Positions 6,231-29,382 of a DNA stretch of 64,000 nucleotides are shown one piece after another. Positions within the stretch are counted from its first letter, which is position 1. Each line of letters opens with the position of its first letter. Both the position numbers and the translations under genes were made by a program. The notes below the pieces were generated by a model. It was not told the origin of the DNA. It worked only from the letters and a program-made list of their open reading frames with translations, and did not search any database. The stretch spans positions 57,434,234-57,498,233 of the forward strand of contig OY743174.1 in assembly GCA_963555705.1 (NCBI GenBank). Direction: 5' to 3'. Source of the DNA: Ligustrum vulgare. Its lineage: Eukaryota > Streptophyta > Magnoliopsida > Lamiales > Oleaceae.

Positions 6231-9135
6231 TATAGCGATCCAGAATTTTTATGCAATAAATAATTATTTTAATATTTAGAAAATTGTGTCGCTACTATTT
6301 CATTTATTATTTTGAAGTTAACGCCGCGACGGATTCGTCTAGCCAAGTCAAGAGATATCGAATTTGTTCGATTTTAAATTAAAATCCGAATTTCTAAAAG
6401 TATATTATTTTATTCATAGTATTATTTTCAAAATCATTTTAGATTCCAATTTTCCGTATTGAATTATTTTAGTCCAAAATCTCAACATTTATTTATTCTC
6501 AAACTTATTATTTTCAGTCCAAAATATATCTGTTTTCAATACGTTTCTTGATCGAAATTAGTCAAATTTGTAGTGATTTATCTTAAATTAATCCTATAAT
6601 TTTCTAAACAATCCAACACTCCCACGTTTTTATCAACCTTCCATCTACTTTACAACCCATCTGCACTCATCATCCTATAGCCGAAAGTGATAGCTATACC
6701 CACTCCTTCAATTATTTTTCCTTTCTTTCTCTTTCAGTATATCATCCACGAGCAGCCTATTTCATCAACTCTACCACCAACCATATTCATCATCATCAAT
6801 CAGGCCAGTTTCCTCCATTTCAACTCCATCCAATTCAATTTCCATTTTGAGCAAGTCTCATTTGCAAGATCAACAATCTCAGCCATTATCATCAATTCTG
6901 ATTTCCTGCAAGCATCTTCAACATGGACACCACTAAACACCATCATTATTTATCCAACCTCTATTTCATTTCTGAATCGAATCTAAACATCACAACTGCT
7001 ATATTGAATTCCCTCTACAAGCATCACACATCTATTATGCAAATTCCAAATACATCCATATCAGCTCCATTACTATCCAACCAACCCAATTGATCAACAC
7101 ACTGAAACCAATCTACCATCATCACCACAGCCTTCCTTCCACTGAATCAATACAGAACCAAGCAGCCACCATTGTCAACCACTCAACACCACAGTCCCAA
7201 CACCAATCCAATCACCAGTCCTCAGCCATCAATCCAAGATCAATCACCACCTAGACCACCGCCGGTCGCTTCCCTGTCTTCTCCTCTGTTGGTCGTGAGA
7301 GAGAGTGTTGAGAGAGAATGAGTTGAGTGGTGAGAGAGAGTTAGATCTGAGGATATATTTTAATATATTTCGAAAATTACAGTTTAGCCCCAAGTTTGAA
7401 AAGTGATCATTTCAGTCCCTGAAGTTTTAAAATGTTTTAAATCAGTCCTTTTAGTTTTAAACTTATCGATTTCAACCCTTAAGTTTTAAATGAGTTTTAA
7501 TCAGCCTTTCATTTTCAAAATATATTATTTCAGCACTATAATAATATTTATTTGAGCTTCGACCCAACTTTTGGAAAAATTGCATTTTAGTCCCTCAACT
7601 TCCAAAAATGTTCAAATTGGTCCCTCATCTTTCAAAGCATCTATTTTAGTCCCTCAAATTTCAAAACATCAATTTTAGTCCTCAAATTATAATTTATCAT
7701 TTTGAACTATATATTCGATATACTAAAGTGACTTATTGGCTAAGACGAAGCGTACGGAGAATTTAAAGAAATTGAAGTCATTCCCGCTCAACTTTGCACT
7801 CGTCGGATTTGAGGTAGACTCGCACTTATTAATTGATTTAAATTATGATTTCATATAAATGTCATGTGACTTGTGAAAGTCAATTTTCAAGAAAATTAAG
7901 TATGTTTTATGAAAGGTAAATATACCTTATGTTTTTATGAAAAGTAAGTATACCCTATGTTTTTACGATAATGTTTTATATGTTTTGGATCATTGCTACA
8001 CATAAGAATTCTTGCCACCTAAGTTCGGTAACATTCTTGTGTCTCCTATGTTTATGAGGATTTGCCACGAAGTTCGGTAAAATTCCTATCTTTCCATATG
8101 TTTATGAGGATTTACCACCTAAGTTCGGTAAAATTCCTGTCGCATATGTTTATGAGGATTTCGATCCTATCTTATGTTATGATGCAATTGATCCCTATGA
8201 ATTTCAGAAAATTATGCTTGGTATACTTACTACATAAGAATTCTTACCACCTAAGTTCGGTAAAATTCTTATGTTTATGAGGATTTCGATTTTATCCTAT
8301 GTTATGATGAAAACTTACTGTGATTTTACTGTTATTATGATAAGAATTCTTGCCACCTAAGTTCGGTAAAGTTCTTGTATGTTTATGAGGATTTAAATCA
8401 TATCTTATGTTATGCTTTCAAAAAGAAATTATGCTTGACATAATTAAAATGTTTTTATAAGTATATGGTTTTCAAAGAGATGTTTTCAAAGAGCTGTTTT
8501 CAAAGAGATATTTTCAAAGAGCTGTTTTCAAAGAGATATTTTCAAAGAGCTGTTTTCAAAGAGCTATTTTCAAAGAGATGTTTTCAAAGAGCCTATTATT
8601 TTCACAATATGTCTCGTGCTGTAATGCACAATATGAGTTTTATCAAGAGCAGTTTTATAAAGAAGCTCTATCAATGCCCGTTTTATAAAGAGCCGGGATT
8701 TATGTGTTTAATCATCTTATAAATTAAATTAATTTGCGATGAGTCTACTGAGTATTTCCCCCATGAAATACTCACCCTACTTTTTAACAGTTTTGCAGAT
8801 TGCGGAGACGGTGGCGAGCGATGAATGATGGTGGCAATAATCGTTAAACAGTTGAAAGTTTGACGTTAATGGTTTCCGTATTTTCCAAACAATCGAATAA
8901 TTTAGAGAAGTTCATTTATTTGAGAAATTATGACATTGGCAATTTCTTTACAAAATTAATGGTTCGATTTACTATTTCAAATGGTTTCATAAATGTTTCA
9001 ATTTTATCGGCCATTACAGTTTATTTAATGTTGCAAAAAATGAATTTCAATTATTTCTTCCGCAAAAATATTATTCGAAAAATTTAGACAGAAAATGACG
9101 TAGTGAATCGGGTATACGGAACTCGGGGCGCTACA
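6231..9135 (+). repeat. LTR 1 of the array, 2905 bp
   Basis: Starts TATAGCGATCC and ends GGGGCGCTACA. Contains a CA-rich pyrimidine segment (about 6690-7270), 'tttagtccctcaa'-type repeats (about 7380-7690), repeats of 'aagttcggtaaaattc' with 'tatgtttatgaggattt' (8010-8400), and a 14-bp minisatellite (8467-8592). ORFs inside it (for example 6687-6986) are compositional and not genes. Confidence 0.9.
8467..8592 (+). repeat. 14-bp minisatellite inside the LTR, 9 copies
   Basis: Nine copies of GTTTTCAAAGAGCT with variation at position 1 and the last two bases. The same array occurs in LTRs 2-4 (about 14686, 20905, 27124). The related solo LTR at 50450-50495 has only about three copies, so copy number varies within the family. 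Confidence 0.9.
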
Positions 9136-10089
9136 AGTTGGTATCAGAGATAGTCTGCGTTTCTGTAGACTGGAAAAATTTTCAAAAAAGAATTTTCAAG
9201 AAATATTTTCCATTATAAAATTTTATTGATGAAGATTGCCACTGCCATCATTCATTCCACCAACTCCGAGGTAAAGAAGTTTATGATGTTTAAAGTTATT
9301 TCAGTATTTCGAATACTCATTTTATTGATTTATGAGAAAGAATGAAGAGTATTTCGGATACTTATGATTTATGAGAAATAAGAATGTATTTCTTCGAAAA
9401 TAATGATGTTGTTATGCTTTGTCATAACTTATATGCTTTAATGTATGATTATGAGAAATTTTTTAAAGAAAACGAGTGTTGAGCATAATGGGAATAATAT
9501 GATTTTATTGAGAATTAAGTAATGGATATTATGTTGAGTTAATTTATTATGCCTCTATGTTGAAGAGAAATTTATTATGAAGTTTGGCTTTGTGAATAAA
9601 TTTTGGGAATATGATTTATGGCATATATTTATAAGTATGAGTAACTTTTGAGCCAATTAAGGTATGGAAGGAAGTAATATTGTGATATTGAAAAATATGA
9701 TTTGAAATTTCTATGTTGAGGAATTATGAATTGAATTATGGGATATTTTGATGATATTGAAGTGTTGGAATCGTTTTCAATATTTTTAGATCGTTGTGAT
9801 CAAATGTGGAGTTATTTATTATTGTGAGTTATGAAGTATGCTTATGGCTTCGATAAGTCCAAATTACAAGGGAGACTCTATCCAGAATTTTATCATTTGG
9901 AATTAAGAGCATAATATGATAAGCATCCACTAAAGGAATTAAGGTTAGACATGCAAGATCATTTACATCACAAACGAGATTTAGTAGATGATAGCAGAGA
10001 TTTTATTATTTTCTCATAAGGAGAACACACAAGAGTCACACTGGAAAGGAAATACATGAAAAACACGAAATCATAAGAGAAAAACATGG

Positions 10090-10330
10090 AAAGATCCTCA
10101 GAATGAGAGATGTGTTTCCGGAGTAGCCGTATCCTACCACCTCTGATCTTTTGAGGAAATAAAGAAACCTTCAAAGAGGTGTGTTTCGAGAGTAAGAATA
10201 CTCCGTAATCTACCACCTGGAATCTTTGAAGTACACACAAGATTTAAACATTAAGGAAATCCTAGTAAATGGAGGGGTGTCTCGAGAGTGAGAATACTCC
10301 GTACTCTACCCCCACCTATTCTAAGATTCA
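10090..10330 (-). repeat. Three imperfect structured repeats downstream of LOG, unit 1
   Basis: Three related blocks share 'gtgttTcgagagt-agaatactccgta-tcta-ccacc'. Each is closed by an inverted repeat: AAAGATC/GATCTTT (10090/10145), CTTCAAAG/CTTTGAAG (10169/10224) and GGAGGGGTG against CCCCCACC (10271/10310). They lie in the presumed 3' untranslated part of the antisense LOG transcript, overlapping its stop. The same blocks occur near 16309-16549 and 22528-22768. Function unknown; an RNA-structure role is inference. Confidence 0.6.
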
Positions 10331-10981
10331 AAGAGTTAAATTTACATTAACCGGACTCCATTTTCGCTTGATTCCCCTTCCTTGCGACCAATCTATCTTA
10401 ACCCCTGCTGGATCTTGTATTGAGATATATGACTGCAGCTTATCCAGTAGTTCATCAATAGTAGGAGCAGAAATAAGAAGCCTTCTGGAAAATGGAGAGA
10501 TGAATCCCTGTTCCACAGCATAATCAAGAAAGGTTAACAAACCATCAAAGAAATTGTTAACATTCAGAAGCCCAATAGGCTTAGTATGGAGATCTAGTTG
10601 AGCCCACGAGGTAATGTTAAAGATTTCTTCTAAAGTACCAAAACCTCCGGGCAGGGCTATAAAGGCATCAGAACCATATAGCATACAAGTTATGCGTTCA
10701 TGGATGGATAAGGTTTGAACTTCATGCCCTCGTGTTTTGCCTGCAACATCTACCAAAGGGACAGGTATGACACCGATTACTTTTGATTTCTCTGCAAGAG
10801 CAGATTGGGAAACACAACCCATTAGACCACTGCTACCACCCCCATACACAAGAGTGATACCTTTTTCCCCCAGTTTCTTTCCAAGATCTACGGCCGCTTC
10901 TAGATAACCGAAGCCTTTCCCTACTTTTGATCCACAAAATACACAAATAGTTTTGATCTGTCGAAGTTTTGGTGCTTCCAT
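10328..10981 (-). CDS. LOG: LOG-like cytokinin riboside 5'-monophosphate phosphoribohydrolase, intronless, copy 1
   Basis: LOG enzymes release active free-base cytokinin from its riboside monophosphate in the cytosol. This 217-aa ORF has the full family length and order: the N-terminal Rossmann start TICVFCGSKVG (11-21), LVYGGGSSGLMG (44-55), a conserved Arg at 96 (HER), the family signature PGGFGTLEE at 111-119, SWAQLDLHTKPIGLLNV (125-141) and ISPFSRRLLISAPT. One usually conserved Lys after Arg96 is Ile, and the sequence is divergent from the classical LOG1-8 type. Typical plant LOG genes have several introns; this copy has none. It lies antisense inside an LTR retrotransposon, 341 bp downstream of the 188-aa ORF on the same strand. 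A TATA-like CTTTAAATAG sits 75-84 bp before the ATG. Catalytic competence is plausible but unproven. Confidence 0.85.
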   Translation of the reverse strand: MEAPKLRQIKTICVFCGSKVGKGFGYLEAAVDLGKKLGEKGITLVYGGGSSGLMGCVSQSALAEKSKVIGVIPVPLVDVAGKTRGHEVQTLSIHERITCMLYGSDAFIALPGGFGTLEEIFNITSWAQLDLHTKPIGLLNVNNFFDGLLTFLDYAVEQGFISPFSRRLLISAPTIDELLDKLQSYISIQDPAGVKIDWSQGRGIKRKWSPVNVNLTL

Positions 10982-11055
10982 CTTTGATAGTAAAGAAGGG
11001 AAAACTTACGAATAAGATGTGATTTTGGGATGCCTGAACTATGAAATATGTTTGG

Positions 11056-11065
11056 CTATTTAAAG
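11056..11065 (-). promoter_or_regulatory. TATA-like box upstream of LOG copy 1
   Basis: Minus-strand CTTTAAATAG, 75-84 bp before the ATG at 10981, is a suitable distance for a short 5' leader. Equivalent boxes occur 6219 and 12438 bp further right. Confidence 0.5.
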
Positions 11066-11157
11066 CCGGAAAAATTTACTGTTTTTGATTGATTCTGAAA
11101 AAGTAAAGATTCACTTTTTGACAAAATCGGCCAACTTTTGACTATTTTATCAAAGAT

Positions 11158-11260
11158 ATCACCTTTCGGTGATTTATTTCCAGCTTTATCAAAACTCGAG
11201 AAAAGGAAAATATATTTATTTCCAGCTTTATCAAAACTCGAGAAAGGAAAATATTTTTTT
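11158..11260 (-). promoter_or_regulatory. Spacer with tetraloop hairpin and a ~46-bp tandem duplication
   Basis: On the minus strand ATCACC-GAAA-GGTGAT (11158-11173) forms a perfect 6-bp stem with a GNRA-type loop. Beside it, a ~46-bp segment containing CAGCTTTATCAAAACTCGAG (plus strand) is repeated in tandem (about 11172-11217 and 11218-11260). It sits between the 188-aa ORF and LOG, in the LOG upstream region. Also present in units 2 and 3. Confidence 0.6.
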
Positions 11261-11322
11261 ATTTCCAAAACGCGTTAAAGAAAACAGAAAAATATTTTTA
11301 AAAGCATATCAAAAGATTTACC

Positions 11323-11889
11323 TTATATCATTGCTGAACTGCCAGAAGACTCATTTTGTAAAACAGACTGGCAAACAGGATCTTTTGCTATTATATTTTG
11401 GAGACTATAACGATTTTTGTCCTCGTTAAACTGAGCGTATAAGGAGAGAAGTTCACGTTGTACATAACCACTTGGGTGCGTCTCAAGAGTCAGTCGAATA
11501 TCATCCAAAGACTCCTTACTCAGTCCACCCTTTATGAATTCGATTTTATCATCCCGATTAGTAGAAGAATATCCTACTGATTTGCAACGAGTATTACAGT
11601 TCCAACGAGCACATTTGTAGCAACCACCCAGTCTTTTTGCTCTTCGTTTCTTTGCAAACGTGCTTTTGCCTAAACCAGGCATGTGCTTTGGAAATGTTGA
11701 TGGTAATTCACCAGATAGTCGAACCTTTGCTTCTATCAACCAGCGAACATCTTCTGGAATATCATGAGCCATTAGCAACCTCAATCTTTCGAGCCTTATT
11801 TTATAGATCTTTCTCAGATCATTCATAGGAAGACTGGAATAATACTTGCGAATGTTAGAAAGAATGATATCCATTGTTTGATGATTCAA
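11323..11889 (-). CDS. 188-aa basic Cys-rich protein of unknown function, copy 1
   Basis: I do not recognise this protein with certainty. It has an amphipathic N-terminal half (residues 10-60), a basic patch KKRRAKR (80-86), immediately followed by a C4 cluster C-x2-C-x4-C-x3-C (Cys 90, 93, 98, 102), then an acidic/hydrophobic C-terminal half. The order 'helical region, basic RR-A-K patch, compact Cys cluster' resembles the small Cys-rich nucleic-acid-binding proteins of carla- and vitivirus-like plant RNA viruses; that resemblance is by eye and tentative. The ORF is intact in all three units. It lies upstream of LOG on the same strand. A TATA-like CTTTTAAATAG at 11907-11917 is only 18-28 bp before the first ATG, so a transcript from it might begin near that ATG and use Met6. 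Confidence 0.55.
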   Translation of the reverse strand: MNHQTMDIILSNIRKYYSSLPMNDLRKIYKIRLERLRLLMAHDIPEDVRWLIEAKVRLSGELPSTFPKHMPGLGKSTFAKKRRAKRLGGCYKCARWNCNTRCKSVGYSSTNRDDKIEFIKGGLSKESLDDIRLTLETHPSGYVQRELLSLYAQFNEDKNRYSLQNIIAKDPVCQSVLQNESSGSSAMI

Positions 11890-12449
11890 CCTCTTCTCAG
11901 CATGAACTATTTAAAAGCGCAAAGGATCTGAGTGAATCCGCGTGATGTTGTGACCAGCAAGAAAGCGCAGGATTATTTTAATGATAAGAGGAGACAAGAA
12001 GTAATGCGCTGTTAAATTTTATCGATAAAGGAGATTTGATTGGAGATTTGGAATATTTTTCTTGGATTATGGGTACTGATATTTTGTTTTAATAATGATA
12101 ATCTTGGTATAGTGTGATGATACGTGGAAAGTAAAATGAGTACCGTATTGAATCAGAATTCATACGTATATACAAGTGAAAGAAATACTTTGCAGGAAAT
12201 GTGGTGACATTTAAGTATAGAATCTTAGTTTTGGGAGATATTTGTTTACTGAATTTTGGGTTACAAATATTGGAAAGATAAGTTGATGATATTATGTTGA
12301 TATGTTACGTAGAGAGAATTTTCAGGTAATTCTTTGATGATTTTGGGAATTTTCGATGATAAGAAGAAGAGATTCTGATTAAGTATTCAGAAATTATAAG
12401 ATTAAGTAAGTTTAATTTCGAGGACGAAATTATTTTAAGGAGGTAAGAT

Positions 12450-15354
12450 TATAGCGATCCAGAATTTTTATGCAATAAATAATTATTTTAATATTTAGAA
12501 AATTGTGTCGCTACTATTTCATTTATTATTTTGAAGTTAACGCCGCGACGGATTCGTCTAGCCAAGTCAAGAGATATCGAATTTGTTCGATTTTAAATTA
12601 AAATCCGAATTTCTAAAAGTATATTATTTTATTCATAGTATTATTTTCAAAATCATTTTAGATTCCAATTTTCCGTATTGAATTATTTTAGTCCAAAATC
12701 TCAACATTTATTTATTCTCAAACTTATTATTTTCAGTCCAAAATATATCTGTTTTCAATACGTTTCTTGATCGAAATTAGTCAAATTTGTAGTGATTTAT
12801 CTTAAATTAATCCTATAATTTTCTAAACAATCCAACACTCCCACGTTTTTATCAACCTTCCATCTACTTTACAACCCATCTGCACTCATCATCCTATAGC
12901 CGAAAGTGATAGCTATACCCACTCCTTCAATTATTTTTCCTTTCTTTCTCTTTCAGTATATCATCCACGAGCAGCCTATTTCATCAACTCTACCACCAAC
13001 CATATTCATCATCATCAATCAGGCCAGTTTCCTCCATTTCAACTCCATCCAATTCAATTTCCATTTTGAGCAAGTCTCATTTGCAAGATCAACAATCTCA
13101 GCCATTATCATCAATTCTGATTTCCTGCAAGCATCTTCAACATGGACACCACTAAACACCATCATTATTTATCCAACCTCTATTTCATTTCTGAATCGAA
13201 TCTAAACATCACAACTGCTATATTGAATTCCCTCTACAAGCATCACACATCTATTATGCAAATTCCAAATACATCCATATCAGCTCCATTACTATCCAAC
13301 CAACCCAATTGATCAACACACTGAAACCAATCTACCATCATCACCACAGCCTTCCTTCCACTGAATCAATACAGAACCAAGCAGCCACCATTGTCAACCA
13401 CTCAACACCACAGTCCCAACACCAATCCAATCACCAGTCCTCAGCCATCAATCCAAGATCAATCACCACCTAGACCACCGCCGGTCGCTTCCCTGTCTTC
13501 TCCTCTGTTGGTCGTGAGAGAGAGTGTTGAGAGAGAATGAGTTGAGTGGTGAGAGAGAGTTAGATCTGAGGATATATTTTAATATATTTCGAAAATTACA
13601 GTTTAGCCCCAAGTTTGAAAAGTGATCATTTCAGTCCCTGAAGTTTTAAAATGTTTTAAATCAGTCCTTTTAGTTTTAAACTTATCGATTTCAACCCTTA
13701 AGTTTTAAATGAGTTTTAATCAGCCTTTCATTTTCAAAATATATTATTTCAGCACTATAATAATATTTATTTGAGCTTCGACCCAACTTTTGGAAAAATT
13801 GCATTTTAGTCCCTCAACTTCCAAAAATGTTCAAATTGGTCCCTCATCTTTCAAAGCATCTATTTTAGTCCCTCAAATTTCAAAACATCAATTTTAGTCC
13901 TCAAATTATAATTTATCATTTTGAACTATATATTCGATATACTAAAGTGACTTATTGGCTAAGACGAAGCGTACGGAGAATTTAAAGAAATTGAAGTCAT
14001 TCCCGCTCAACTTTGCACTCGTCGGATTTGAGGTAGACTCGCACTTATTAATTGATTTAAATTATGATTTCATATAAATGTCATGTGACTTGTGAAAGTC
14101 AATTTTCAAGAAAATTAAGTATGTTTTATGAAAGGTAAATATACCTTATGTTTTTATGAAAAGTAAGTATACCCTATGTTTTTACGATAATGTTTTATAT
14201 GTTTTGGATCATTGCTACACATAAGAATTCTTGCCACCTAAGTTCGGTAACATTCTTGTGTCTCCTATGTTTATGAGGATTTGCCACGAAGTTCGGTAAA
14301 ATTCCTATCTTTCCATATGTTTATGAGGATTTACCACCTAAGTTCGGTAAAATTCCTGTCGCATATGTTTATGAGGATTTCGATCCTATCTTATGTTATG
14401 ATGCAATTGATCCCTATGAATTTCAGAAAATTATGCTTGGTATACTTACTACATAAGAATTCTTACCACCTAAGTTCGGTAAAATTCTTATGTTTATGAG
14501 GATTTCGATTTTATCCTATGTTATGATGAAAACTTACTGTGATTTTACTGTTATTATGATAAGAATTCTTGCCACCTAAGTTCGGTAAAGTTCTTGTATG
14601 TTTATGAGGATTTAAATCATATCTTATGTTATGCTTTCAAAAAGAAATTATGCTTGACATAATTAAAATGTTTTTATAAGTATATGGTTTTCAAAGAGAT
14701 GTTTTCAAAGAGCTGTTTTCAAAGAGATATTTTCAAAGAGCTGTTTTCAAAGAGATATTTTCAAAGAGCTGTTTTCAAAGAGCTATTTTCAAAGAGATGT
14801 TTTCAAAGAGCCTATTATTTTCACAATATGTCTCGTGCTGTAATGCACAATATGAGTTTTATCAAGAGCAGTTTTATAAAGAAGCTCTATCAATGCCCGT
14901 TTTATAAAGAGCCGGGATTTATGTGTTTAATCATCTTATAAATTAAATTAATTTGCGATGAGTCTACTGAGTATTTCCCCCATGAAATACTCACCCTACT
15001 TTTTAACAGTTTTGCAGATTGCGGAGACGGTGGCGAGCGATGAATGATGGTGGCAATAATCGTTAAACAGTTGAAAGTTTGACGTTAATGGTTTCCGTAT
15101 TTTCCAAACAATCGAATAATTTAGAGAAGTTCATTTATTTGAGAAATTATGACATTGGCAATTTCTTTACAAAATTAATGGTTCGATTTACTATTTCAAA
15201 TGGTTTCATAAATGTTTCAATTTTATCGGCCATTACAGTTTATTTAATGTTGCAAAAAATGAATTTCAATTATTTCTTCCGCAAAAATATTATTCGAAAA
15301 ATTTAGACAGAAAATGACGTAGTGAATCGGGTATACGGAACTCGGGGCGCTACA
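12450..15354 (+). repeat. LTR 2 of the array, 2905 bp
   Basis: Appears identical to LTR 1 over everything I compared. It is shared between units 1 and 2, acting as 3' LTR of one and 5' LTR of the next. Confidence 0.9.
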
Positions 15355-16546
15355 AGTTGGTATCAGAGATAGTCTGCGTTTCTGTAGACTGGAAAAATTT
15401 TCAAAAAAGAATTTTCAAGAAATATTTTCCATTATAAAATTTTATTGATGAAGATTGCCACTGCCATCATTCATTCCACCAACTCCGAGGTAAAGAAGTT
15501 TATGATGTTTAAAGTTATTTCAGTATTTCGAATACTCATTTTATTGATTTATGAGAAAGAATGAAGAGTATTTCGGATACTTATGATTTATGAGAAATAA
15601 GAATGTATTTCTTCGAAAATAATGATGTTGTTATGCTTTGTCATAACTTATATGCTTTAATGTATGATTATGAGAAATTTTTTAAAGAAAACGAGTGTTG
15701 AGCATAATGGGAATAATATGATTTTATTGAGAATTAAGTAATGGATATTATGTTGAGTTAATTTATTATGCCTCTATGTTGAAGAGAAATTTATTATGAA
15801 GTTTGGCTTTGTGAATAAATTTTGGGAATATGATTTATGGCATATATTTATAAGTATGAGTAACTTTTGAGCCAATTAAGGTATGGAAGGAAGTAATATT
15901 GTGATATTGAAAAATATGATTTGAAATTTCTATGTTGAGGAATTATGAATTGAATTATGGGATATTTTGATGATATTGAAGTGTTGGAATCGTTTTCAAT
16001 ATTTTTAGATCGTTGTGATCAAATGTGGAGTTATTTATTATTGTGAGTTATGAAGTATGCTTATGGCTTCGATAAGTCCAAATTACAAGGGAGACTCTAT
16101 CCAGAATTTTATCATTTGGAATTAAGAGCATAATATGATAAGCATCCACTAAAGGAATTAAGGTTAGACATGCAAGATCATTTACATCACAAACGAGATT
16201 TAGTAGATGATAGCAGAGATTTTATTATTTTCTCATAAGGAGAACACACAAGAGTCACACTGGAAAGGAAATACATGAAAAACACGAAATCATAAGAGAA
16301 AAACATGGAAAGATCCTCAGAATGAGAGATGTGTTTCCGGAGTAGCCGTATCCTACCACCTCTGATCTTTTGAGGAAATAAAGAAACCTTCAAAGAGGTG
16401 TGTTTCGAGAGTAAGAATACTCCGTAATCTACCACCTGGAATCTTTGAAGTACACACAAGATTTAAACATTAAGGAAATCCTAGTAAATGGAGGGGTGTC
16501 TCGAGAGTGAGAATACTCCGTACTCTACCCCCACCTATTCTAAGAT

Positions 16547-18108: not shown

Positions 18109-18668
18109 CCTCTTCTCAGCATGAACTATTTAAAAGCGCAAAGGATCTGAGTGAATCCGCGTGATGTTGTGACCAGCAAGAAAGCGCAGGATTATTTTAA
18201 TGATAAGAGGAGACAAGAAGTAATGCGCTGTTAAATTTTATCGATAAAGGAGATTTGATTGGAGATTTGGAATATTTTTCTTGGATTATGGGTACTGATA
18301 TTTTGTTTTAATAATGATAATCTTGGTATAGTGTGATGATACGTGGAAAGTAAAATGAGTACCGTATTGAATCAGAATTCATACGTATATACAAGTGAAA
18401 GAAATACTTTGCAGGAAATGTGGTGACATTTAAGTATAGAATCTTAGTTTTGGGAGATATTTGTTTACTGAATTTTGGGTTACAAATATTGGAAAGATAA
18501 GTTGATGATATTATGTTGATATGTTACGTAGAGAGAATTTTCAGGTAATTCTTTGATGATTTTGGGAATTTTCGATGATAAGAAGAAGAGATTCTGATTA
18601 AGTATTCAGAAATTATAAGATTAAGTAAGTTTAATTTCGAGGACGAAATTATTTTAAGGAGGTAAGAT

Positions 18669-21573
18669 TATAGCGATCCAGAATTTTTATGCAATAAATA
18701 ATTATTTTAATATTTAGAAAATTGTGTCGCTACTATTTCATTTATTATTTTGAAGTTAACGCCGCGACGGATTCGTCTAGCCAAGTCAAGAGATATCGAA
18801 TTTGTTCGATTTTAAATTAAAATCCGAATTTCTAAAAGTATATTATTTTATTCATAGTATTATTTTCAAAATCATTTTAGATTCCAATTTTCCGTATTGA
18901 ATTATTTTAGTCCAAAATCTCAACATTTATTTATTCTCAAACTTATTATTTTCAGTCCAAAATATATCTGTTTTCAATACGTTTCTTGATCGAAATTAGT
19001 CAAATTTGTAGTGATTTATCTTAAATTAATCCTATAATTTTCTAAACAATCCAACACTCCCACGTTTTTATCAACCTTCCATCTACTTTACAACCCATCT
19101 GCACTCATCATCCTATAGCCGAAAGTGATAGCTATACCCACTCCTTCAATTATTTTTCCTTTCTTTCTCTTTCAGTATATCATCCACGAGCAGCCTATTT
19201 CATCAACTCTACCACCAACCATATTCATCATCATCAATCAGGCCAGTTTCCTCCATTTCAACTCCATCCAATTCAATTTCCATTTTGAGCAAGTCTCATT
19301 TGCAAGATCAACAATCTCAGCCATTATCATCAATTCTGATTTCCTGCAAGCATCTTCAACATGGACACCACTAAACACCATCATTATTTATCCAACCTCT
19401 ATTTCATTTCTGAATCGAATCTAAACATCACAACTGCTATATTGAATTCCCTCTACAAGCATCACACATCTATTATGCAAATTCCAAATACATCCATATC
19501 AGCTCCATTACTATCCAACCAACCCAATTGATCAACACACTGAAACCAATCTACCATCATCACCACAGCCTTCCTTCCACTGAATCAATACAGAACCAAG
19601 CAGCCACCATTGTCAACCACTCAACACCACAGTCCCAACACCAATCCAATCACCAGTCCTCAGCCATCAATCCAAGATCAATCACCACCTAGACCACCGC
19701 CGGTCGCTTCCCTGTCTTCTCCTCTGTTGGTCGTGAGAGAGAGTGTTGAGAGAGAATGAGTTGAGTGGTGAGAGAGAGTTAGATCTGAGGATATATTTTA
19801 ATATATTTCGAAAATTACAGTTTAGCCCCAAGTTTGAAAAGTGATCATTTCAGTCCCTGAAGTTTTAAAATGTTTTAAATCAGTCCTTTTAGTTTTAAAC
19901 TTATCGATTTCAACCCTTAAGTTTTAAATGAGTTTTAATCAGCCTTTCATTTTCAAAATATATTATTTCAGCACTATAATAATATTTATTTGAGCTTCGA
20001 CCCAACTTTTGGAAAAATTGCATTTTAGTCCCTCAACTTCCAAAAATGTTCAAATTGGTCCCTCATCTTTCAAAGCATCTATTTTAGTCCCTCAAATTTC
20101 AAAACATCAATTTTAGTCCTCAAATTATAATTTATCATTTTGAACTATATATTCGATATACTAAAGTGACTTATTGGCTAAGACGAAGCGTACGGAGAAT
20201 TTAAAGAAATTGAAGTCATTCCCGCTCAACTTTGCACTCGTCGGATTTGAGGTAGACTCGCACTTATTAATTGATTTAAATTATGATTTCATATAAATGT
20301 CATGTGACTTGTGAAAGTCAATTTTCAAGAAAATTAAGTATGTTTTATGAAAGGTAAATATACCTTATGTTTTTATGAAAAGTAAGTATACCCTATGTTT
20401 TTACGATAATGTTTTATATGTTTTGGATCATTGCTACACATAAGAATTCTTGCCACCTAAGTTCGGTAACATTCTTGTGTCTCCTATGTTTATGAGGATT
20501 TGCCACGAAGTTCGGTAAAATTCCTATCTTTCCATATGTTTATGAGGATTTACCACCTAAGTTCGGTAAAATTCCTGTCGCATATGTTTATGAGGATTTC
20601 GATCCTATCTTATGTTATGATGCAATTGATCCCTATGAATTTCAGAAAATTATGCTTGGTATACTTACTACATAAGAATTCTTACCACCTAAGTTCGGTA
20701 AAATTCTTATGTTTATGAGGATTTCGATTTTATCCTATGTTATGATGAAAACTTACTGTGATTTTACTGTTATTATGATAAGAATTCTTGCCACCTAAGT
20801 TCGGTAAAGTTCTTGTATGTTTATGAGGATTTAAATCATATCTTATGTTATGCTTTCAAAAAGAAATTATGCTTGACATAATTAAAATGTTTTTATAAGT
20901 ATATGGTTTTCAAAGAGATGTTTTCAAAGAGCTGTTTTCAAAGAGATATTTTCAAAGAGCTGTTTTCAAAGAGATATTTTCAAAGAGCTGTTTTCAAAGA
21001 GCTATTTTCAAAGAGATGTTTTCAAAGAGCCTATTATTTTCACAATATGTCTCGTGCTGTAATGCACAATATGAGTTTTATCAAGAGCAGTTTTATAAAG
21101 AAGCTCTATCAATGCCCGTTTTATAAAGAGCCGGGATTTATGTGTTTAATCATCTTATAAATTAAATTAATTTGCGATGAGTCTACTGAGTATTTCCCCC
21201 ATGAAATACTCACCCTACTTTTTAACAGTTTTGCAGATTGCGGAGACGGTGGCGAGCGATGAATGATGGTGGCAATAATCGTTAAACAGTTGAAAGTTTG
21301 ACGTTAATGGTTTCCGTATTTTCCAAACAATCGAATAATTTAGAGAAGTTCATTTATTTGAGAAATTATGACATTGGCAATTTCTTTACAAAATTAATGG
21401 TTCGATTTACTATTTCAAATGGTTTCATAAATGTTTCAATTTTATCGGCCATTACAGTTTATTTAATGTTGCAAAAAATGAATTTCAATTATTTCTTCCG
21501 CAAAAATATTATTCGAAAAATTTAGACAGAAAATGACGTAGTGAATCGGGTATACGGAACTCGGGGCGCTACA
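18669..21573 (+). repeat. LTR 3 of the array, 2905 bp
   Basis: Appears identical to LTRs 1 and 2 over what I compared. Confidence 0.9.
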
Positions 21574-22765
21574 AGTTGGTATCAGAGATAGTCTGCGTTT
21601 CTGTAGACTGGAAAAATTTTCAAAAAAGAATTTTCAAGAAATATTTTCCATTATAAAATTTTATTGATGAAGATTGCCACTGCCATCATTCATTCCACCA
21701 ACTCCGAGGTAAAGAAGTTTATGATGTTTAAAGTTATTTCAGTATTTCGAATACTCATTTTATTGATTTATGAGAAAGAATGAAGAGTATTTCGGATACT
21801 TATGATTTATGAGAAATAAGAATGTATTTCTTCGAAAATAATGATGTTGTTATGCTTTGTCATAACTTATATGCTTTAATGTATGATTATGAGAAATTTT
21901 TTAAAGAAAACGAGTGTTGAGCATAATGGGAATAATATGATTTTATTGAGAATTAAGTAATGGATATTATGTTGAGTTAATTTATTATGCCTCTATGTTG
22001 AAGAGAAATTTATTATGAAGTTTGGCTTTGTGAATAAATTTTGGGAATATGATTTATGGCATATATTTATAAGTATGAGTAACTTTTGAGCCAATTAAGG
22101 TATGGAAGGAAGTAATATTGTGATATTGAAAAATATGATTTGAAATTTCTATGTTGAGGAATTATGAATTGAATTATGGGATATTTTGATGATATTGAAG
22201 TGTTGGAATCGTTTTCAATATTTTTAGATCGTTGTGATCAAATGTGGAGTTATTTATTATTGTGAGTTATGAAGTATGCTTATGGTTTCGATAAGTCCAA
22301 ATTACAAGGGAGACTCTATCCAGAATTTTATCATTTGGAATTAAGAGCATAATATGATAAGCATCCACTAAAGGAATTAAGGTTAGACATGCAAGATCAT
22401 TTACATCACAAACGAGATTTAGTAGATGATAGCAGAGATTTTATTATTTTCTCATAAGGAGAACACACAAGAGTCACACTGGAAAGGAAATACATGAAAA
22501 ACACGAAATCATAAGAGAAAAACATGGAAAGATCCTCAGAATGAGAGATGTGTTTCCGGAGTAGCCGTATCCTACCACCTCTGATCTTTTGAGGAAATAA
22601 AGAAACCTTCAAAGAGGTGTGTTTCGAGAGTAAGAATACTCCGTAATCTACCACCTGGAATCTTTGAAGTACACACAAGATTTAAACATTAAGGAAATCC
22701 TAGTAAATGGAGGGGTGTCTCGAGAGTGAGAATACTCCGTACTCTACCCCCACCTATTCTAAGAT

Positions 22766-23419
22766 TCAAAGAGTTAAATTTACATTAACCGGACTCCATT
22801 TTCGCTTGATTCCCCTTCCTTGCGACCAATCTATCTTAACCCCTGCTGGATCTTGTATTGAGATATATGACTGCAGCTTATCCAGTAGTTCATCAATAGT
22901 AGGAGCAGAAATAAGAAGCCTTCTGGAAAATGGAGAGATGAATCCCTGTTCCACAGCATAATCAAGAAAGGTTAACAAACCATCAAAGAAATTGTTAACA
23001 TTCAGAAGCCCAATAGGCTTAGTATGGAGATCTAGTTGAGCCCACGAGGTAATGTTAAAGATTTCTTCTAAAGTACCAAAACCTCCGGGCAGGGCTATAA
23101 AGGCATCAGAACCATATAGCATACAAGTTATGCGTTCATGGATGGATAAGGTTTGAACTTCATGCCCTCGTGTTTTGCCTGCAACATCTACCAAAGGGAC
23201 AGGTATGACACCGATTACTTTTGATTTCTCTGCAAGAGCAGATTGGGAAACACAACCCATTAGACCACTGCTACCACCCCCATACACAAGAGTGATACCT
23301 TTTTCCCCCAGTTTCTTTCCAAGATCTACGGCCGCTTCTAGATAACCGAAGCCTTTCCCTACTTTTGATCCACAAAATACACAAATAGTTTTGATCTGTC
23401 GAAGTTTTGGTGCTTCCAT
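22766..23419 (-). CDS. LOG: LOG-like enzyme, intronless, copy 3
   Basis: Protein identical to copies 1 and 2; all LOG motifs are intact. Confidence 0.85.
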   Translation of the reverse strand: MEAPKLRQIKTICVFCGSKVGKGFGYLEAAVDLGKKLGEKGITLVYGGGSSGLMGCVSQSALAEKSKVIGVIPVPLVDVAGKTRGHEVQTLSIHERITCMLYGSDAFIALPGGFGTLEEIFNITSWAQLDLHTKPIGLLNVNNFFDGLLTFLDYAVEQGFISPFSRRLLISAPTIDELLDKLQSYISIQDPAGVKIDWSQGRGIKRKWSPVNVNLTL

Positions 23420-23760
23420 CTTTGATAGTAAAGAAGGGAAAACTTACGAATAAGATGTGATTTTGGGATGCCTGAACTATGAAATATGTTTGGCTATTTA
23501 AAGCCGGAAAAATTTACTGTTTTTGATTGATTCTGAAAAAGTAAAGATTCACTTTTTGACAAAATCGGCCAACTTTTGACTATTTTATCAAAGATATCAC
23601 CTTTCGGTGATTTATTTCCAGCTTTATCAAAACTCGAGAAAAGGAAAATATATTTATTTCCAGCTTTATCAAAACTCGAGAAAGGAAAATATTTTTTTAT
23701 TTCCAAAACGCGTTAAAGAAAACAGAAAAATATTTTTAAAAGCATATCAAAAGATTTACC

Positions 23761-24327
23761 TTATATCATTGCTGAACTGCCAGAAGCCTCATTTTGTAAA
23801 ACAGACTGGCAAACAGGATCTTTTGCTATTATATTTTGGAGACTATAACGATTTTTGTCCTCGTTAAACTGAGCGTATAAGGAGAGAAGTTCACGTTGTA
23901 CATAACCACTTGGGTGCGTCTCAAGAGTCAGTCGAATATCATCCAAAGACTCCTTACTCAGTCCACCCTTTATGAATTCGATTTTATCATCCCGATTAGT
24001 AGAAGAATATCCTACTGATTTGCAACGAGTATTACAGTTCCAACGAGCACATTTGTAGCAACCACCCAGTCTTTTTGCTCTTCGTTTCTTTGCAAACGTG
24101 CTTTTGCCTAAACCAGGCATGTGCTTTGGAAATGTTGATGGTAATTCACCAGATAGTCGAACCTTTGCTTCTATCAACCAGCGAACATCTTCTGGAATAT
24201 CATGAGCCATTAGCAACCTCAATCTTTCGAGCCTTATTTTATAGATCTTTCTCAGATCATTCATAGGAAGACTGGAATAATACTTGCGAATGTTAGAAAG
24301 AATGATATCCATTGTTTGATGATTCAA
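23761..24327 (-). CDS. 188-aa Cys-rich protein, copy 3 (one substitution)
   Basis: Identical to copies 1 and 2 except Ser181 to Ala in the C-terminal tail; the Cys cluster and basic patch are unchanged. Confidence 0.55.
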   Translation of the reverse strand: MNHQTMDIILSNIRKYYSSLPMNDLRKIYKIRLERLRLLMAHDIPEDVRWLIEAKVRLSGELPSTFPKHMPGLGKSTFAKKRRAKRLGGCYKCARWNCNTRCKSVGYSSTNRDDKIEFIKGGLSKESLDDIRLTLETHPSGYVQRELLSLYAQFNEDKNRYSLQNIIAKDPVCQSVLQNEASGSSAMI

Positions 24328-24887
24328 CCTCTTCTCAGCATGAACTATTTAAAAGCGCAAAGGATCTGAGTGAATCCGCGTGATGTTGTGACCAGCAAGA
24401 AAGCGCAGGATTATTTTAATGATAAGAGGAGACAAGAAGTAATGCGCTGTTAAATTTTATCGATAAAGGAGATTTGATTGGAGATTTGGAATATTTTTCT
24501 TGGATTATGGGTACTGATATTTTGTTTTAATAATGATAATCTTGGTATAGTGTGATGATACGTGGAAAGTAAAATGAGTACCGTATTGAATCAGAATTCA
24601 TACGTATATACAAGTGAAAGAAATACTTTGCAGGAAATGTGGTGACATTTAAGTATAGAATCTTAGTTTTGGGAGATATTTGTTTACTGAATTTTGGGTT
24701 ACAAATATTGGAAAGATAAGTTGATGATATTATGTTGATATGTTACGTAGAGAGAATTTTCAGGTAATTCTTTGATGATTTTGGGAATTTTCGATGATAA
24801 GAAGAAGAGATTCTGATTAAGTATTCAGAAATTATAAGATTAAGTAAGTTTAATTTCGAGGACGAAATTATTTTAAGGAGGTAAGAT

Positions 24888-27792
24888 TATAGCGATCCAG
24901 AATTTTTATGCAATAAATAATTATTTTAATATTTAGAAAATTGTGTCGCTACTATTTCATTTATTATTTTGAAGTTAACGCCGCGACGGATTCGTCTAGC
25001 CAAGTCAAGAGATATCGAATTTGTTCGATTTTAAATTAAAATCCGAATTTCTAAAAGTATATTATTTTATTCATAGTATTATTTTCAAAATCATTTTAGA
25101 TTCCAATTTTCCGTATTGAATTATTTTAGTCCAAAATCTCAACATTTATTTATTCTCAAACTTATTATTTTCAGTCCAAAATATATCTGTTTTCAATACG
25201 TTTCTTGATCGAAATTAGTCAAATTTGTAGTGATTTATCTTAAATTAATCCTATAATTTTCTAAACAATCCAACACTCCCACGTTTTTATCAACCTTCCA
25301 TCTACTTTACAACCCATCTGCACTCATCATCCTATAGCCGAAAGTGATAGCTATACCCACTCCTTCAATTATTTTTCCTTTCTTTCTCTTTCAGTATATC
25401 ATCCACGAGCAGCCTATTTCATCAACTCTACCACCAACCATATTCATCATCATCAATCAGGCCAGTTTCCTCCATTTCAACTCCATCCAATTCAATTTCC
25501 ATTTTGAGCAAGTCTCATTTGCAAGATCAACAATCTCAGCCATTATCATCAATTCTGATTTCCTGCAAGCATCTTCAACATGGACACCACTAAACACCAT
25601 CATTATTTATCCAACCTCTATTTCATTTCTGAATCGAATCTAAACATCACAACTGCTATATTGAATTCCCTCTACAAGCATCACACATCTATTATGCAAA
25701 TTCCAAATACATCCATATCAGCTCCATTACTATCCAACCAACCCAATTGATCAACACACTGAAACCAATCTACCATCATCACCACAGCCTTCCTTCCACT
25801 GAATCAATACAGAACCAAGCAGCCACCATTGTCAACCACTCAACACCACAGTCCCAACACCAATCCAATCACCAGTCCTCAGCCATCAATCCAAGATCAA
25901 TCACCACCTAGACCACCGCCGGTCGCTTCCCTGTCTTCTCCTCTGTTGGTCGTGAGAGAGAGTGTTGAGAGAGAATGAGTTGAGTGGTGAGAGAGAGTTA
26001 GATCTGAGGATATATTTTAATATATTTCGAAAATTACAGTTTAGCCCCAAGTTTGAAAAGTGATCATTTCAGTCCCTGAAGTTTTAAAATGTTTTAAATC
26101 AGTCCTTTTAGTTTTAAACTTATCGATTTCAACCCTTAAGTTTTAAATGAGTTTTAATCAGCCTTTCATTTTCAAAATATATTATTTCAGCACTATAATA
26201 ATATTTATTTGAGCTTCGACCCAACTTTTGGAAAAATTGCATTTTAGTCCCTCAACTTCCAAAAATGTTCAAATTGGTCCCTCATCTTTCAAAGCATCTA
26301 TTTTAGTCCCTCAAATTTCAAAACATCAATTTTAGTCCTCAAATTATAATTTATCATTTTAAACTATATATTCGATATACTAAAGTGACTTATTGGCTAA
26401 GACGCTTCGTACGGAGAATTTAAAGAAATTGAAGTCATTCCCGCTCAACTTTGCACTCGTCGGATTTGAGGTAGACTCGCACTTATTAATTGATTTAAAT
26501 TATGATTTCATATAAATGTCATGTGACTTGTGAAAGTCAATTTTCAAGAAAATTAAGTATGTTTTATGAAAGGTAAATATACCTTATGTTTTTATGAAAA
26601 GTAAGTATACCCTATGTTTTTACGATAATGTTTTATATGTTTTGGATCATTGCTACACATAAGAATTCTTGCCACCTAAGTTCGGTAACATTCTTGTGTC
26701 TCCTATGTTTATGAGGATTTGCCACGAAGTTCGGTAAAATTCCTATCTTTCCATATGTTTATGAGGATTTACCACCTAAGTTCGGTAAAATTCCTGTCGC
26801 ATATGTTTATGAGGATTTCGATCCTATCTTATGTTATGATGCAATTGATCCCTATGAATTTCAGAAAATTATGCTTGGTATACTTACTACATAAGAATTC
26901 TTACCACCTAAGTTCGGTAAAATTCTTATGTTTATGAGGATTTCGATTTTATCCTATGTTATGATGAAAACTTACTGTGATTTTACTGTTATTATGATAA
27001 GAATTCTTGCCACCTAAGTTCGGTAAAGTTCTTGTATGTTTATGAGGATTTAAATCATATCTTATGTTATGCTTTCAAAAAGAAATTATGCTTGACATAA
27101 TTAAAATGTTTTTATAAGTATATGGTTTTCAAAGAGATGTTTTCAAAGAGCTGTTTTCAAAGAGATATTTTCAAAGAGCTGTTTTCAAAGAGATATTTTC
27201 AAAGAGCTGTTTTCAAAGAGCTATTTTCAAAGAGATGTTTTCAAAGAGCCTATTATTTTCACAATATGTCTCGTGCTGTAATGCACAATATGAGTTTTAT
27301 CAAGAGCAGTTTTATAAAGAAGCTCTATCAATGCCCGTTTTATAAAGAGCCGGGATTTATGTGTTTAATCATCTTATAAATTAAATTAATTTGCGATGAG
27401 TCTACTGAGTATTTCCCCCATGAAATACTCACCCTACTTTTTAACAGTTTTGCAGATTGCGGAGACGGTGGCGAGCGATGAATGATGGTGGCAATAATCG
27501 TTAAACAGTTGAAAGTTTGACGTTAATGGTTTCCGTATTTTCCAAACAATCGAATAATTTAGAGAAGTTCATTTATTTGAGAAATTATGACATTGGCAAT
27601 TTCTTTACAAAATTAATGGTTCGATTTACTATTTCAAATGGTTTCATAAATGTTTCAATTTTATCGGCCATTACAGTTTATTTAATGTTGCAAAAAATGA
27701 ATTTCAATTATTTCTTCCGCAAAAATATTATTCGAAAAATTTAGACAGAAAATGACATAGTGAATCGGGTATACGGAACTCGGGGCGCTACA
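24888..27792 (+). repeat. LTR 4 of the array, 2905 bp, slightly diverged
   Basis: Closes the array. Unlike LTRs 1-3 it has G to A at 26361, AAG to CTT at 26405-26407 (equal to an inversion of CGAAGCG), and G to A at 27757. It is followed by the right TSD CCTAG at 27793-27797 rather than a PBS. Confidence 0.9.

Positions 27793-29376: not shown

Positions 29377-29382
<6 letters not shown>

Follow-up and report, generated by a model that had tools for sequence, protein, structure and literature searches.

An antisense pair of genes for a virus-type nucleic-acid-binding protein and a LOG enzyme in LTR retrotransposons of Ligustrum vulgare

A tandem array of a non-autonomous LTR retrotransposon

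The window, a 64,000-nucleotide stretch of the Ligustrum vulgare assembly GCA_963555705.1 (contig OY743174.1), contains three head-to-tail units of one element and, further downstream, a solo LTR:

6226..6230, no strand: target-site duplication CCTAG, left, 5 bp
6231..27792: whole array, three head-to-tail units of one element
6231..9135, plus strand: LTR 1 (TATAGCG..CGCTACA), from self-comparison
9136..12449, plus strand: internal region 1, from self-comparison
9138..9149, plus strand: PBS-like TTGGTATCAGAG, also in units 2 and 3, after LTRs 2 and 3
12414..12446, plus strand: pol-end remnant NFEDEIILRR-stop, the last ten codons, before the 3' LTR
12437-12449: purine-rich stretch beside the pol-end remnant
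12450..15354, plus strand: LTR 2, identical to LTR 1
15355..18668, plus strand: internal region 2, identical to internal region 1
18669..21573, plus strand: LTR 3, identical to LTR 1
21574..24887, plus strand: internal region 3, 2 of 3314 sites different
24888..27792, plus strand: LTR 4, 5 of 2905 sites different from LTRs 1-3
27793..27797, no strand: target-site duplication CCTAG, right, 5 bp
49906..52960, minus strand: solo LTR, 81-97% identical to the array LTR in the aligned pieces, with a TTTTT target duplication

Comparison of the window with itself gave 99.95% identity between 6231-21573 and 12450-27792, an offset that sets the period at 6,219 bp, and divided the array into four LTRs of 2,905 bp and three internal regions of 3,314 bp; the coordinates, period and numbers of parts given in a preliminary description of this DNA were exact. 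Three of the five private differences of LTR 4 are adjacent. Only one 5-bp duplication, CCTAG, encloses the entire array, which is compatible with one insertion. The paired LTRs, target duplication, PBS and purine tract are those of an LTR retrotransposon. We take the PBS-like TTGGTATCAGAG, which follows LTRs 1-3 and had been reported for each unit, to be of the initiator-Met type. The preliminary description saw neither gag nor pol, and the ORF list indeed holds no gag or pol ORF of at least 150 aa in 6231-27792, but a ten-codon, apparently gypsy-type pol end is left at 12414-12446; with this end only and no gag-pol of its own, the element is non-autonomous. The pol-end remnant and the 3' signature are presumably gypsy-type, which would place this backbone, called A below, in Ty3/gypsy. 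This anatomy, as read from the sequence, is in our judgement close to certain. As a whole, we lean slightly towards explaining the array as the young insertion of a non-autonomous gypsy-derived element that grew to three LTR-sharing units. The solo LTR sits in a copia element, within its 3' LTR.

Two antisense genes in each unit

Antisense to the element, each unit carries a cassette of ~2.1 kb with two genes:

9975..12098, minus strand: NABP-LOG cassette, unit 1, with approximate limits where identity to the other backbones falls to background
10328..10981, minus strand: LOG gene, unit 1, 217 aa, PF03641, intron-less
10328..10369, minus strand: LOG tail, unit 1, a basic stretch and then VNVNLTL (a degenerate form of the LxLxL of relatives)
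11056..11064, minus strand: TATA-like TTTAAATAG before LOG, 75-83 bp upstream of its ATG
11323..11874, minus strand: NABP gene, unit 1, 183 aa when read from the ATG, 188 aa if counted from a TTG ahead of it
11907..11915, minus strand: TATA-like TTTAAATAG before NABP, 33-41 bp upstream of its ATG
16547..17200, minus strand: LOG gene, unit 2
17542..18093, minus strand: NABP gene, unit 2
22766..23419, minus strand: LOG gene, unit 3
23761..24312, minus strand: NABP gene, unit 3, one residue different

Both reading frames are open in all three units, in agreement with the earlier report of two intact antisense ORFs per unit, one a complete LOG. Among the eight aligned copies shown, the TATA-like TTTAAATAG is conserved in seven on the NABP side (L010 has one mismatch) and in six on the LOG side (L011 and L013, one mismatch each).

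The second ORF, left unnamed in the preliminary description, is open as stated there, but its 188 aa had been counted from the TTG, and a Pfam profile search identified its product as a Viral_NABP/Carla_C4 protein. PF05515 matched with an E value of 3.3e-7 and PF01623 with one of 4.6e-6; their scores of 30.9 and 26.9 bits passed the curated cut-offs of 23 and 20.9 bits, respectively. Among 94 NABP relatives 92 match Viral_NABP and 87 Carla_C4 at E 0.01 or better. NABP carries a zinc finger and a basic core, as carlavirus-type proteins do, and its likeness to viral proteins is confined to the core domain. Its AlphaFold model (mean pLDDT 73) has a conserved N-terminal helical part; the top two hits of the model in a viral structure library were RNA-silencing suppressors, one from Fig latent virus 1 and one from Chrysanthemum virus B, with non-significant E values (0.32 and 0.95). 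Viruses of the carla-/betaflexi type have cysteine-rich nucleic-acid-binding proteins, to which NABP is homologous; transfer may have gone in either direction. The idea of a captured hormone gene as cargo was right for LOG, but the cargo is two genes, and the partner is this virus-type protein. According to the pertinent passages of PMC12172455, the cysteine-rich proteins of viruses act as RNA-silencing suppressors, and p12 of Chrysanthemum virus B is a transcription factor that induces hyperplasia. NABP may likewise be an anti-silencing factor, with chances that we put a little below even.

LOG matches PF03641 with an E value of 1.3e-33 and has the PGGxGTxxE motif, which is exact in 107 of the 120 listed element-type relatives and not in the other 13. 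The nearest solved chain is At2g37210 (E 1.6e-57), which we take to be LOG3. That the LTR element is non-autonomous, lies in a tandem array and bears an intact LOG gene had been correctly recognized; this gene has no intron. The exact C-terminal end is LxLxL in 92 of the 120 listed element-type LOGs vs 0 of 120 cellular LOGs; by a loose pattern, a basic cluster precedes it in 88 of the 92, and internally the motif occurs in 3 of 21,463 windows of the element-type proteins. EAR motifs have the form LxLxL or DLNxxP and recruit TOPLESS. The recurrent loss of the tail in this genome, where a stop removes it in 5 of 20 loci, together with the VNVNLTL of the window copy, argues against the LxLxL tail being essential. 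A tree was built from the window LOG and 37 of the 120 listed element-type LOGs, some from named eudicots, with 14 of the 120 listed cellular LOGs and At5g11950, other cellular LOG subfamilies being left out. The 38 element-type rows formed one clade (99/97) apart from these 15 cellular LOGs, and the window LOG fell outside the cellular clade. From this tree the capture looks old.

One cassette in three LTR backbones

A first look at the 1.385-Gb assembly gave 7,995 candidate places for LOG and 8,796 for NABP, of which only the best 150 of each were scored; the cassette would, from these matches, look to be present at thousands of places. Beside so many copies, the suggestion that array growth had tripled the dose of the gene means little. 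Tandem arrays, 20 in number and of differing spacings, hold 47 of the best-scored 150 copies.

Backbone probes assigned 20 loci to three unrelated LTR backbones: the gypsy-like A of the window (1 locus), the copia-gag B (10) and the short-LTR, putatively copia-like C (9). The cassette is therefore not the cargo of one retrotransposon family, as had been supposed. Locus L014 has a copia gag ORF (PF14223, E 4.9e-24), and the other nine B loci have the same backbone. Backbone C has a short LTR, a PBS and a purine tract; the probes used found no gag or pol inside its elements. Of the 20 loci, 14 have a LOG that is open to its normal end. A stop directly ahead of the tail shortens LOG in 5, among them L022, which has an earlier break as well, and 1 has a frameshift. 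NABP was a single long ORF in 16, none being found in 4. At L001 NABP lies sense to an integrase and has no LOG alongside, so the pair is not obligate.

A sample based on the LTR gave 40 matches to LTR-end/PBS DNA, from which ten loci were examined; these are young, since they are the nearest relatives of the window LTR. The cassette is present in nine, where NABP is open every time and LOG in eight, and the tenth has other sequence where sampled. The preliminary description had left room for a single accident of capture; this check shows a family trait.

Identity between backbones was 73-94% across the genes and mostly near 50% outside them, and a part of the 3' non-coding region was conserved like the genes between A and B (90-97%). 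The cassette tree gave one clade per backbone (A 100/100, B 100/100, C 98/97), with A sister to B (98/97). With each place used once, dN/dS was 0.117 (A-B), 0.084 (A-C) and 0.106 (B-C) for LOG and 0.139, 0.139 and 0.173 for NABP, values from copies among the best-scoring of thousands, a choice that biases dN downwards. A separate estimate on the best-scoring copies was similar, and dS between backbones was 0.38-0.73. That dN lies far below dS points to constraint on both proteins. We consider it probable that the cassette is under selection and common to several backbones.

Relatives in other plants

By their matches, relatives of both genes occur across eudicots. Three Orobanche gene models (P0017, P0022 and P0023) fuse both genes, and the LOG and NABP match lists apparently have five contigs of at least 1.5 kb in common, as matched on size, vs 0.48 expected. 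P0180 and P0125 carry the annotation LOGL10, and hypothetical proteins of Reevesia account for 38 of the 120 LOG matches listed. For annotators, public plant gene models called LOG or "hypothetical protein" may be copies of cassette cargo.

Proposed role of the cassette

The explanation that we prefer by a narrow measure is that of a young gypsy-derived array with an antisense accessory cassette whose proteins help the elements. A TATA-like box stands ahead of each antisense gene. The proteins of both genes would be made and would aid the elements: NABP may act like its viral relatives, as an RNA-silencing suppressor or a nuclear nucleic-acid-binding factor, and LOG may release active cytokinin or work in the nucleus via its tail. 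The effect of LOG would favour dividing or meristematic cells, where new copies would reach the germ line. Action of LOG through cytokinin is a tentative choice that we put at somewhat under one half. Possession of the cassette would let non-autonomous elements outdo those without it, an advantage that would account for its passage between families.

More doubtful is a reading in which NABP, as a virus-type silencing suppressor, and a LOG that has acquired a nuclear, EAR-like tail form a selfish cassette, traded between gypsy and copia elements and kept by selection across eudicots. With it, non-autonomous retrotransposons would blunt host silencing and push host cells to a cytokinin-rich or transcriptionally repressed state for germ-line spread. 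The tail losses in loci of this genome weaken it.

The main role of LOG might instead be to recruit co-repressors in the nucleus by means of its basic/LxLxL (EAR-like) tail, with NABP as the nucleic-acid anchor, and not to act through cytokinin. The prevalence of the terminal motif in the listed element-type LOGs, its absence from the cellular ones and its rarity elsewhere in the proteins favour this; we nevertheless find it unlikely, as we do any action of LOG mainly through the tail, given the VNVNLTL end of the window copy, the stops just ahead of the tail and the catalytic motif intact in most listed relatives.

The benefit could also come from the antisense transcript, or from its promoters or terminator regulating element RNA, and not from the proteins, an idea discussed for other antisense ORFs in the relevant part of PMC7264820. 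The cassette is antisense in every locus of this genome with readable orientation, the TATA-like boxes have persisted, and between A and B a part of the 3' non-coding region matches the genes in conservation. The excess of dS over dN and the sense orientation of NABP at L001 speak against this reading, which seems to us quite improbable.

Slightly less probable again is a passive passenger, host LOG cDNA and viral cDNA caught by chance and hitch-hiking. Non-autonomous elements spread any cargo, the copies of family A are so young and near-identical that intactness alone proves little, and LOG is incomplete in 6 of the 20 loci and a long NABP ORF was not found in 4. Against it stand dN/dS of 0.08-0.17 between backbones at the dS given above, the presence of the cassette in three backbones and the eudicot-wide relatives in one LOG clade. 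Lastly, that the near-identical units are an assembly artefact of one element is very improbable, given the private differences in LTR 4 and internal region 3, the 20 arrays of differing spacing within the best 150 copies and the frequency of such tandems in plants (reported in part of PMC11899658).

The cassette bears on a wider question, by what means non-autonomous retrotransposons increase in number in the face of RNA-directed silencing. Its conserved pairing of a homologue of viral silencing suppressors with a hormone-activating enzyme makes it testable whether plant retrotransposons borrowed a viral counter-defence, whether they alter host cytokinin status and whether accessory genes move between LTR-element superfamilies.

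Comparison with known systems

The claim that no described family has this cargo was too strong. For two Citrus species and for P. trichocarpa, PMC9289625 (citing Steinbauerova 2011) notes Ty3/gypsy consensus sequences with a YgdH (LOG) domain, so that, as here, a LOG-family domain lies within Ty3/gypsy elements of several species. In the passage concerned it is a domain match in a screen, and nothing is said of a virus-type partner, of copia backbones, of a C-terminal tail, or of orientation and selection. We found no published account of the NABP-LOG pairing, its cross-superfamily spread or the LOG tail.

Grande gene23, RIRE2 and Retand TRP28 have antisense accessory ORFs between pol and the 3' LTR that are conserved across copies, as here, and gene23 is driven by a promoter of its own and encodes a nuclear protein (relevant parts of PMC7264820 and PMC11963269). 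Such proteins are mostly without known kin or viral similarity in the corresponding part of the review (PMC7264820), whereas the present cassette joins one virus-type protein to one hormone enzyme and is common to several backbones. For the accessory ORF proteins of sunflower Tekay, the authors suggest that an LTR element protein may modulate RNA silencing; they base this on a resemblance to double-stranded-RNA-binding proteins, and the text of PMC11728184 contains none of the terms carla, lysine decarboxylase and cytokinin. Carlavirus-type cysteine-rich/nucleic-acid-binding proteins (PF05515, PF01623; treated in part of PMC12172455) have the zinc finger and basic core in common with NABP, but NABP is chromosomal and element-borne, and no replicase or coat gene was seen alongside it. 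The AlkB-type RNA demethylase of orchid Gypsy elements is likewise an enzyme that possibly acts on RNA, of a kind also found in RNA viruses, but it is another enzyme, confined in that screen to Phalaenopsis and to Gypsy (section concerned of PMC9289625). Tandem LTR-retrotransposons have alternating LTRs and internal regions within one target duplication, as does this array, and their account in PMC11899658 discusses no cargo in the part that bears on them. What is new in the element described here is the cargo, not the tandem structure.

A tandem array built from one LTR element

The stretch between 6231 and 27792 consists of four direct LTRs of 2,905 bp with three internal regions of 3,314 bp between them. 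Self-comparison gave a period of 6,219 bp and 99.95% identity, recovering at the same coordinates the array of four LTRs and three internals reported in the preliminary description. LTR1-3 show no differences, while LTR4 is changed at 5 of 2,905 sites and the third internal region at 2 of 3,314. The sole 5-bp duplication, CCTAG, lies at the array borders (6226-6230 and 27793-27797). Given this single flanking duplication and the near-identical units, the array is compatible with a single recent insertion and later unequal exchange between its LTRs, or with the insertion of a tandem cDNA; PMC11899658 decides for neither origin of tandem LTR elements.

Each unit carries an antisense two-gene package, the cassette, made of a virus-type nucleic-acid-binding protein gene (NABP) and a cytokinin-activating enzyme gene (LOG). 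Across the assembly, 47 of the 150 best-scored NABP copies stand in 20 arrays, each with two or three units 6.2-6.9 kb apart, indicating that tandem growth is common in the family of the window element.

Features of the window element (backbone A) and a related solo LTR
9138-9149, plus strand: start of the internal region, TTGGTATCAGAG (sequence reading)
10328-10981, minus strand: LOG gene (PF03641 match)
11323-11874, minus strand: NABP gene, counted from the ATG (PF05515 and PF01623 matches)
12414-12446, plus strand: NFEDEIILRR-stop codons at the internal end (sequence reading)
49906-52960, minus strand: solo LTR akin to the array LTR, with a TTTTT duplication, within a copia 3' LTR

A purine-rich stretch follows the NFEDEIILRR-stop end, ahead of the next LTR. 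We take this end to resemble the Ty3/gypsy pol terminus, and for this reason backbone A is termed gypsy-derived. The ORF scan found no gag or pol ORF of at least 150 aa in the array, in agreement with the earlier remark that both are missing.

The cargo genes

The LOG gene matched PF03641 at E 1.3e-33, so the LOG-like enzyme of the preliminary description stands; the second ORF can now be named a virus-type NABP, with 30.9 bits against Viral_NABP (PF05515, cut-off 23) and 26.9 bits against Carla_C4 (PF01623, cut-off 20.9). These two families were matched by 18/18 and 17/18 NABP relatives at E 1, and by 92/94 and 87/94 at E 0.01. NABP had no match among PDB chains. Its AlphaFold model, built from 94 sequences, reached a mean pLDDT of 73 and a pTM of 0.37 (a first model from 18 sequences, pLDDT 56, was set aside) and had as its two top-ranked matches among viral structures the 'RNA silencing suppressor' of Fig latent virus 1 (E 0.32) and of Chrysanthemum virus B (E 0.95), neither of them significant. 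According to PMC12172455, viral proteins of this kind suppress RNA silencing, and p12 of Chrysanthemum virus B acts in addition as a hyperplasia-inducing transcription factor. Among the viral contigs of IMG/VR there were zero NABP matches and one remote LOG match (29%).

A TATA-like box lies upstream of each gene and is retained in most aligned copies. Directly past the NABP stop (11300-11335, minus strand), AAG/GTAAAT is unchanged in 8/8 aligned copies shown, from backbones A, B and C; it resembles a 5' splice site, and spliced NABP-LOG messages could be possible. Three imperfect repeats with the pattern AGGTGGTAG..ACGGAGTA..CTCTCGAAACACACC follow the LOG stop (10080-10330, minus strand); they form no stable fold, and their conservation between A and B exceeds that of the NABP-LOG intergenic gap. 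For the cassette's 3' part, the idea of conserved hairpins was rejected, the predicted fold being not above shuffles (z -0.65), and an Rfam search of this part, repeats included, returned one sub-threshold match and no family.

Copies across the genome

At first look, the assembly searched (1.385 Gb, 51 contigs) yielded 7,995 candidate LOG places and 8,796 candidate NABP places. Scoring was confined to the best 150 per gene, and these lie on contigs C1-C23. The interior was free of stops in 149/150 LOG matches, over a 131-position domain that is part of the gene, and in 150/150 NABP matches, over the whole protein. A second sample, which avoids picking genes by score, was chosen through LTR-end and PBS DNA (10 of 40 matches fetched); its loci are the closest to the window LTR and hence young. 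The cassette was present in 9 of these 10, with NABP open in 9/9 and LOG in 8/9, one LOG being frameshifted. The preliminary description had proposed looking for LOG in other elements of this LTR family, and its capture as a single accident is rejected on this result together with the thousands of candidate places. At the tenth locus, homology to the internal region ends at position 9680 of the window; the sequence that comes next includes a pararetrovirus-like reverse-transcriptase fragment. In fetched locus L049, a PF00078 reverse-transcriptase fragment (140-391), presumably pararetrovirus-like, adjoins a truncated family-A element near G000:C12:4894833.

Three backbones share one cassette

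We surveyed 9.9 kb around each of 20 loci out of the 150 best LOG places. Probes outside the cassette split them into one locus of backbone A (L018), ten of B and nine of C, three unrelated LTR-element types.

Features of backbones B and C in fetched loci
Backbone B: LTR TGTTGACC..GGTCAACA, ~1.8 kb wherever an intact pair was present
Backbone B: PBS ATTGGTATCAGAGC and purine tract AAAAAGGGGGAAAT
Backbone C: LTR TGTTATAA.., about 210-260 bp
Backbone C: CGTTATCAGCACGAG past the LTR and AAGGGGGAG ahead of the LTR

The backbone-B locus L014 has a sense gag of 305 aa of the copia type (PF14223, E 4.9e-24); inside the backbone-C element, the probes used found no gag or pol. The shared cassette extends in the window from ~12098 to ~9975. 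Between backbones, identity is 73-94% over the cassette genes and mostly near 50% outside (33-74% by block). The cassette is antisense in the A loci read, in 10/10 B loci (9 via the PBS, L012 via a gag-like ORF) and in 8/9 C loci, the orientation of L026 being unreadable.

A two-gene tree in which 27 distinct places supplied 31 cassette rows, with the NABP of L001 (a 3,330-bp contig) added, recovered one clade per backbone (A 100/100, B 100/100, C 98/97). The gypsy-derived A and the copia backbone B group as sisters (98/97), with C outside, a topology that indicates that the cassette switched backbone at least twice. Provided that A is gypsy, at least one switch would then have crossed superfamilies. 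The smallest dS for both genes is that between A and B, so the cassette probably moved as a unit. In L017, a piece of family-A LTR (352-1269, 98%) adjoins a backbone-B element, as a nested or chimeric junction.

Selection and decay

We computed dN/dS with every place used once, on ungapped alignments of at least 195 residues (LOG) or 160 residues (NABP). For A-B, A-C and B-C the values were 0.117, 0.084 and 0.106 in LOG and 0.139, 0.139 and 0.173 in NABP, with dS of 0.38-0.73, all from best-scoring copies and thus with a remaining bias; an earlier run in which three places were double-counted gave similar values. Between the window NABP and that of L001, dN was 0.25 and dS 1.40.

Of the 20 loci, 14 keep LOG open as far as its usual end. 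In five (L011, L012, L015, L019 and L022) it ends just ahead of the C-terminal tail, with an additional earlier break in L022, and in L021 it is frameshifted; a single long NABP ORF was found in 16/20. The five stops nearly coincide and occur in both backbones B and C, reflecting either repeated loss of the tail or a shorter alternative form of LOG.

Relatives in other plants and the LOG tail

Protein searches returned 349 NABP matches at E 0.001 and 7,231 LOG matches. The best 120 listed for each include Orobanche, Striga, Populus, Acer, Xanthoceras, Reevesia, Diplodiscus, Diospyros and others, the nearest named NABP relatives among the matches listed being from Striga and Orobanche. Three Orobanche gene models (P0017, P0022 and P0023) are NABP-LOG fusions. 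Short contigs from the NABP and LOG match lists (105 and 64 sizes) have five sizes of at least 1.5 kb in common against 0.48 expected (p 0.0001), which suggests that the two genes are probably neighbours in other plants too.

In L001, an NABP 67% identical lies on the sense strand, downstream of an integrase ORF (rve, H2C2) and ahead of a purine-rich tract, the accessory-gene position of a seemingly autonomous gypsy element, which we take to be Athila-like; no LOG was found on this contig. This plant-like retrotransposon DNA is filed in a Candidatus Nomurabacteria bacterial MAG and is a probable contamination of the public MAG.

A single clade (99/97) unites 38 element-type LOGs, the window copy plus 37 out of the 120 listed, and is separate from 15 cellular LOGs; the non-window rows were called element-type by kinship, cluster size and names, not by genomic place. 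An exact C-terminal LxLxL ends 92/120 listed element-type LOGs, preceded by a basic cluster in 88 of the 92 (loose pattern), and 0/120 cellular LOG1/3/4-like proteins; internally, element-type proteins have LxLxL in 3 per 21,463 windows. In the genome of the window, KRKWSP or KRKRSP plus VNVNLTL or VNVNLSL was read in 18/20 rows translated in frame, the exceptions being L021 (frameshifted) and L024 (KQKW); a stop precedes the tail in 4 of these 18 (L011, L012, L019, L022), and likewise in L015. We hypothesize that the tail may be a nuclear/EAR-like signal, a reading against which these losses weigh.

Other features of the window

At 1-4049 lies a gypsy element with gag and protease, whose direct repeats (1-650 and 3403-4049, 97.5%) enclose a 561-aa Retrotrans_gag ORF, with no further ORF of at least 150 aa between them. 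A copia-type element (49626-58325) has two overlapping ORFs in different frames (53796-57514, minus strand), and its 3' LTR is interrupted by the solo LTR. Direct repeats of 500 bp (59012-59512 and 61749-62233, 92%) are perhaps the LTRs of another short element. At 29309-29560, a perfect 86-bp duplication that includes a long G run comes after (CT)34, a possible assembly problem or recent slippage. Host-type coding sequence at 39284-39910 (BES1/BZR1 N-terminal domain) and 47855-48643 (class 3 lipase) places the array in a gene-bearing region.

Proposed mechanism and comparison with known systems

Since a TATA-like box is retained before each gene, we propose that NABP and LOG would be transcribed independently, in antisense. 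NABP may weaken RNA silencing or bind element RNA or DNA, and LOG may increase the level of active cytokinin or have a nuclear role; both would plausibly help the element to transpose in dividing cells.

Tandem LTR elements, antisense ORFs, LOG within gypsy elements and accessory proteins suggested to modulate silencing are already known one by one, so the earlier statement that no described family has this cargo does not hold for LOG. In the literature searched, with most subscription papers outside it, we found neither the pairing of LOG with a virus-type gene, nor a cassette in copia and gypsy backbones alike, nor constraint on NABP and LOG, nor the LOG tail. Carla_C4 and Viral_NABP were absent from the top-ranked literature matches, a lower-ranked retrotransposon paper being possible. 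An endogenous betaflexivirus replicase is described in cucumber (PMC3136472), in a text whose available part contains neither 'nucleic acid binding' nor 'cysteine-rich'.

A parallel for the proposed expression is Grande gene23, which, in the part of the review PMC7264820 consulted, is antisense and transcribed on its own, as we propose for the cassette genes. The same part of the review describes the antisense ORFs of LTR elements as lacking virus similarity; the NABP-LOG cassette, with its virus-type gene, is an exception to that statement.
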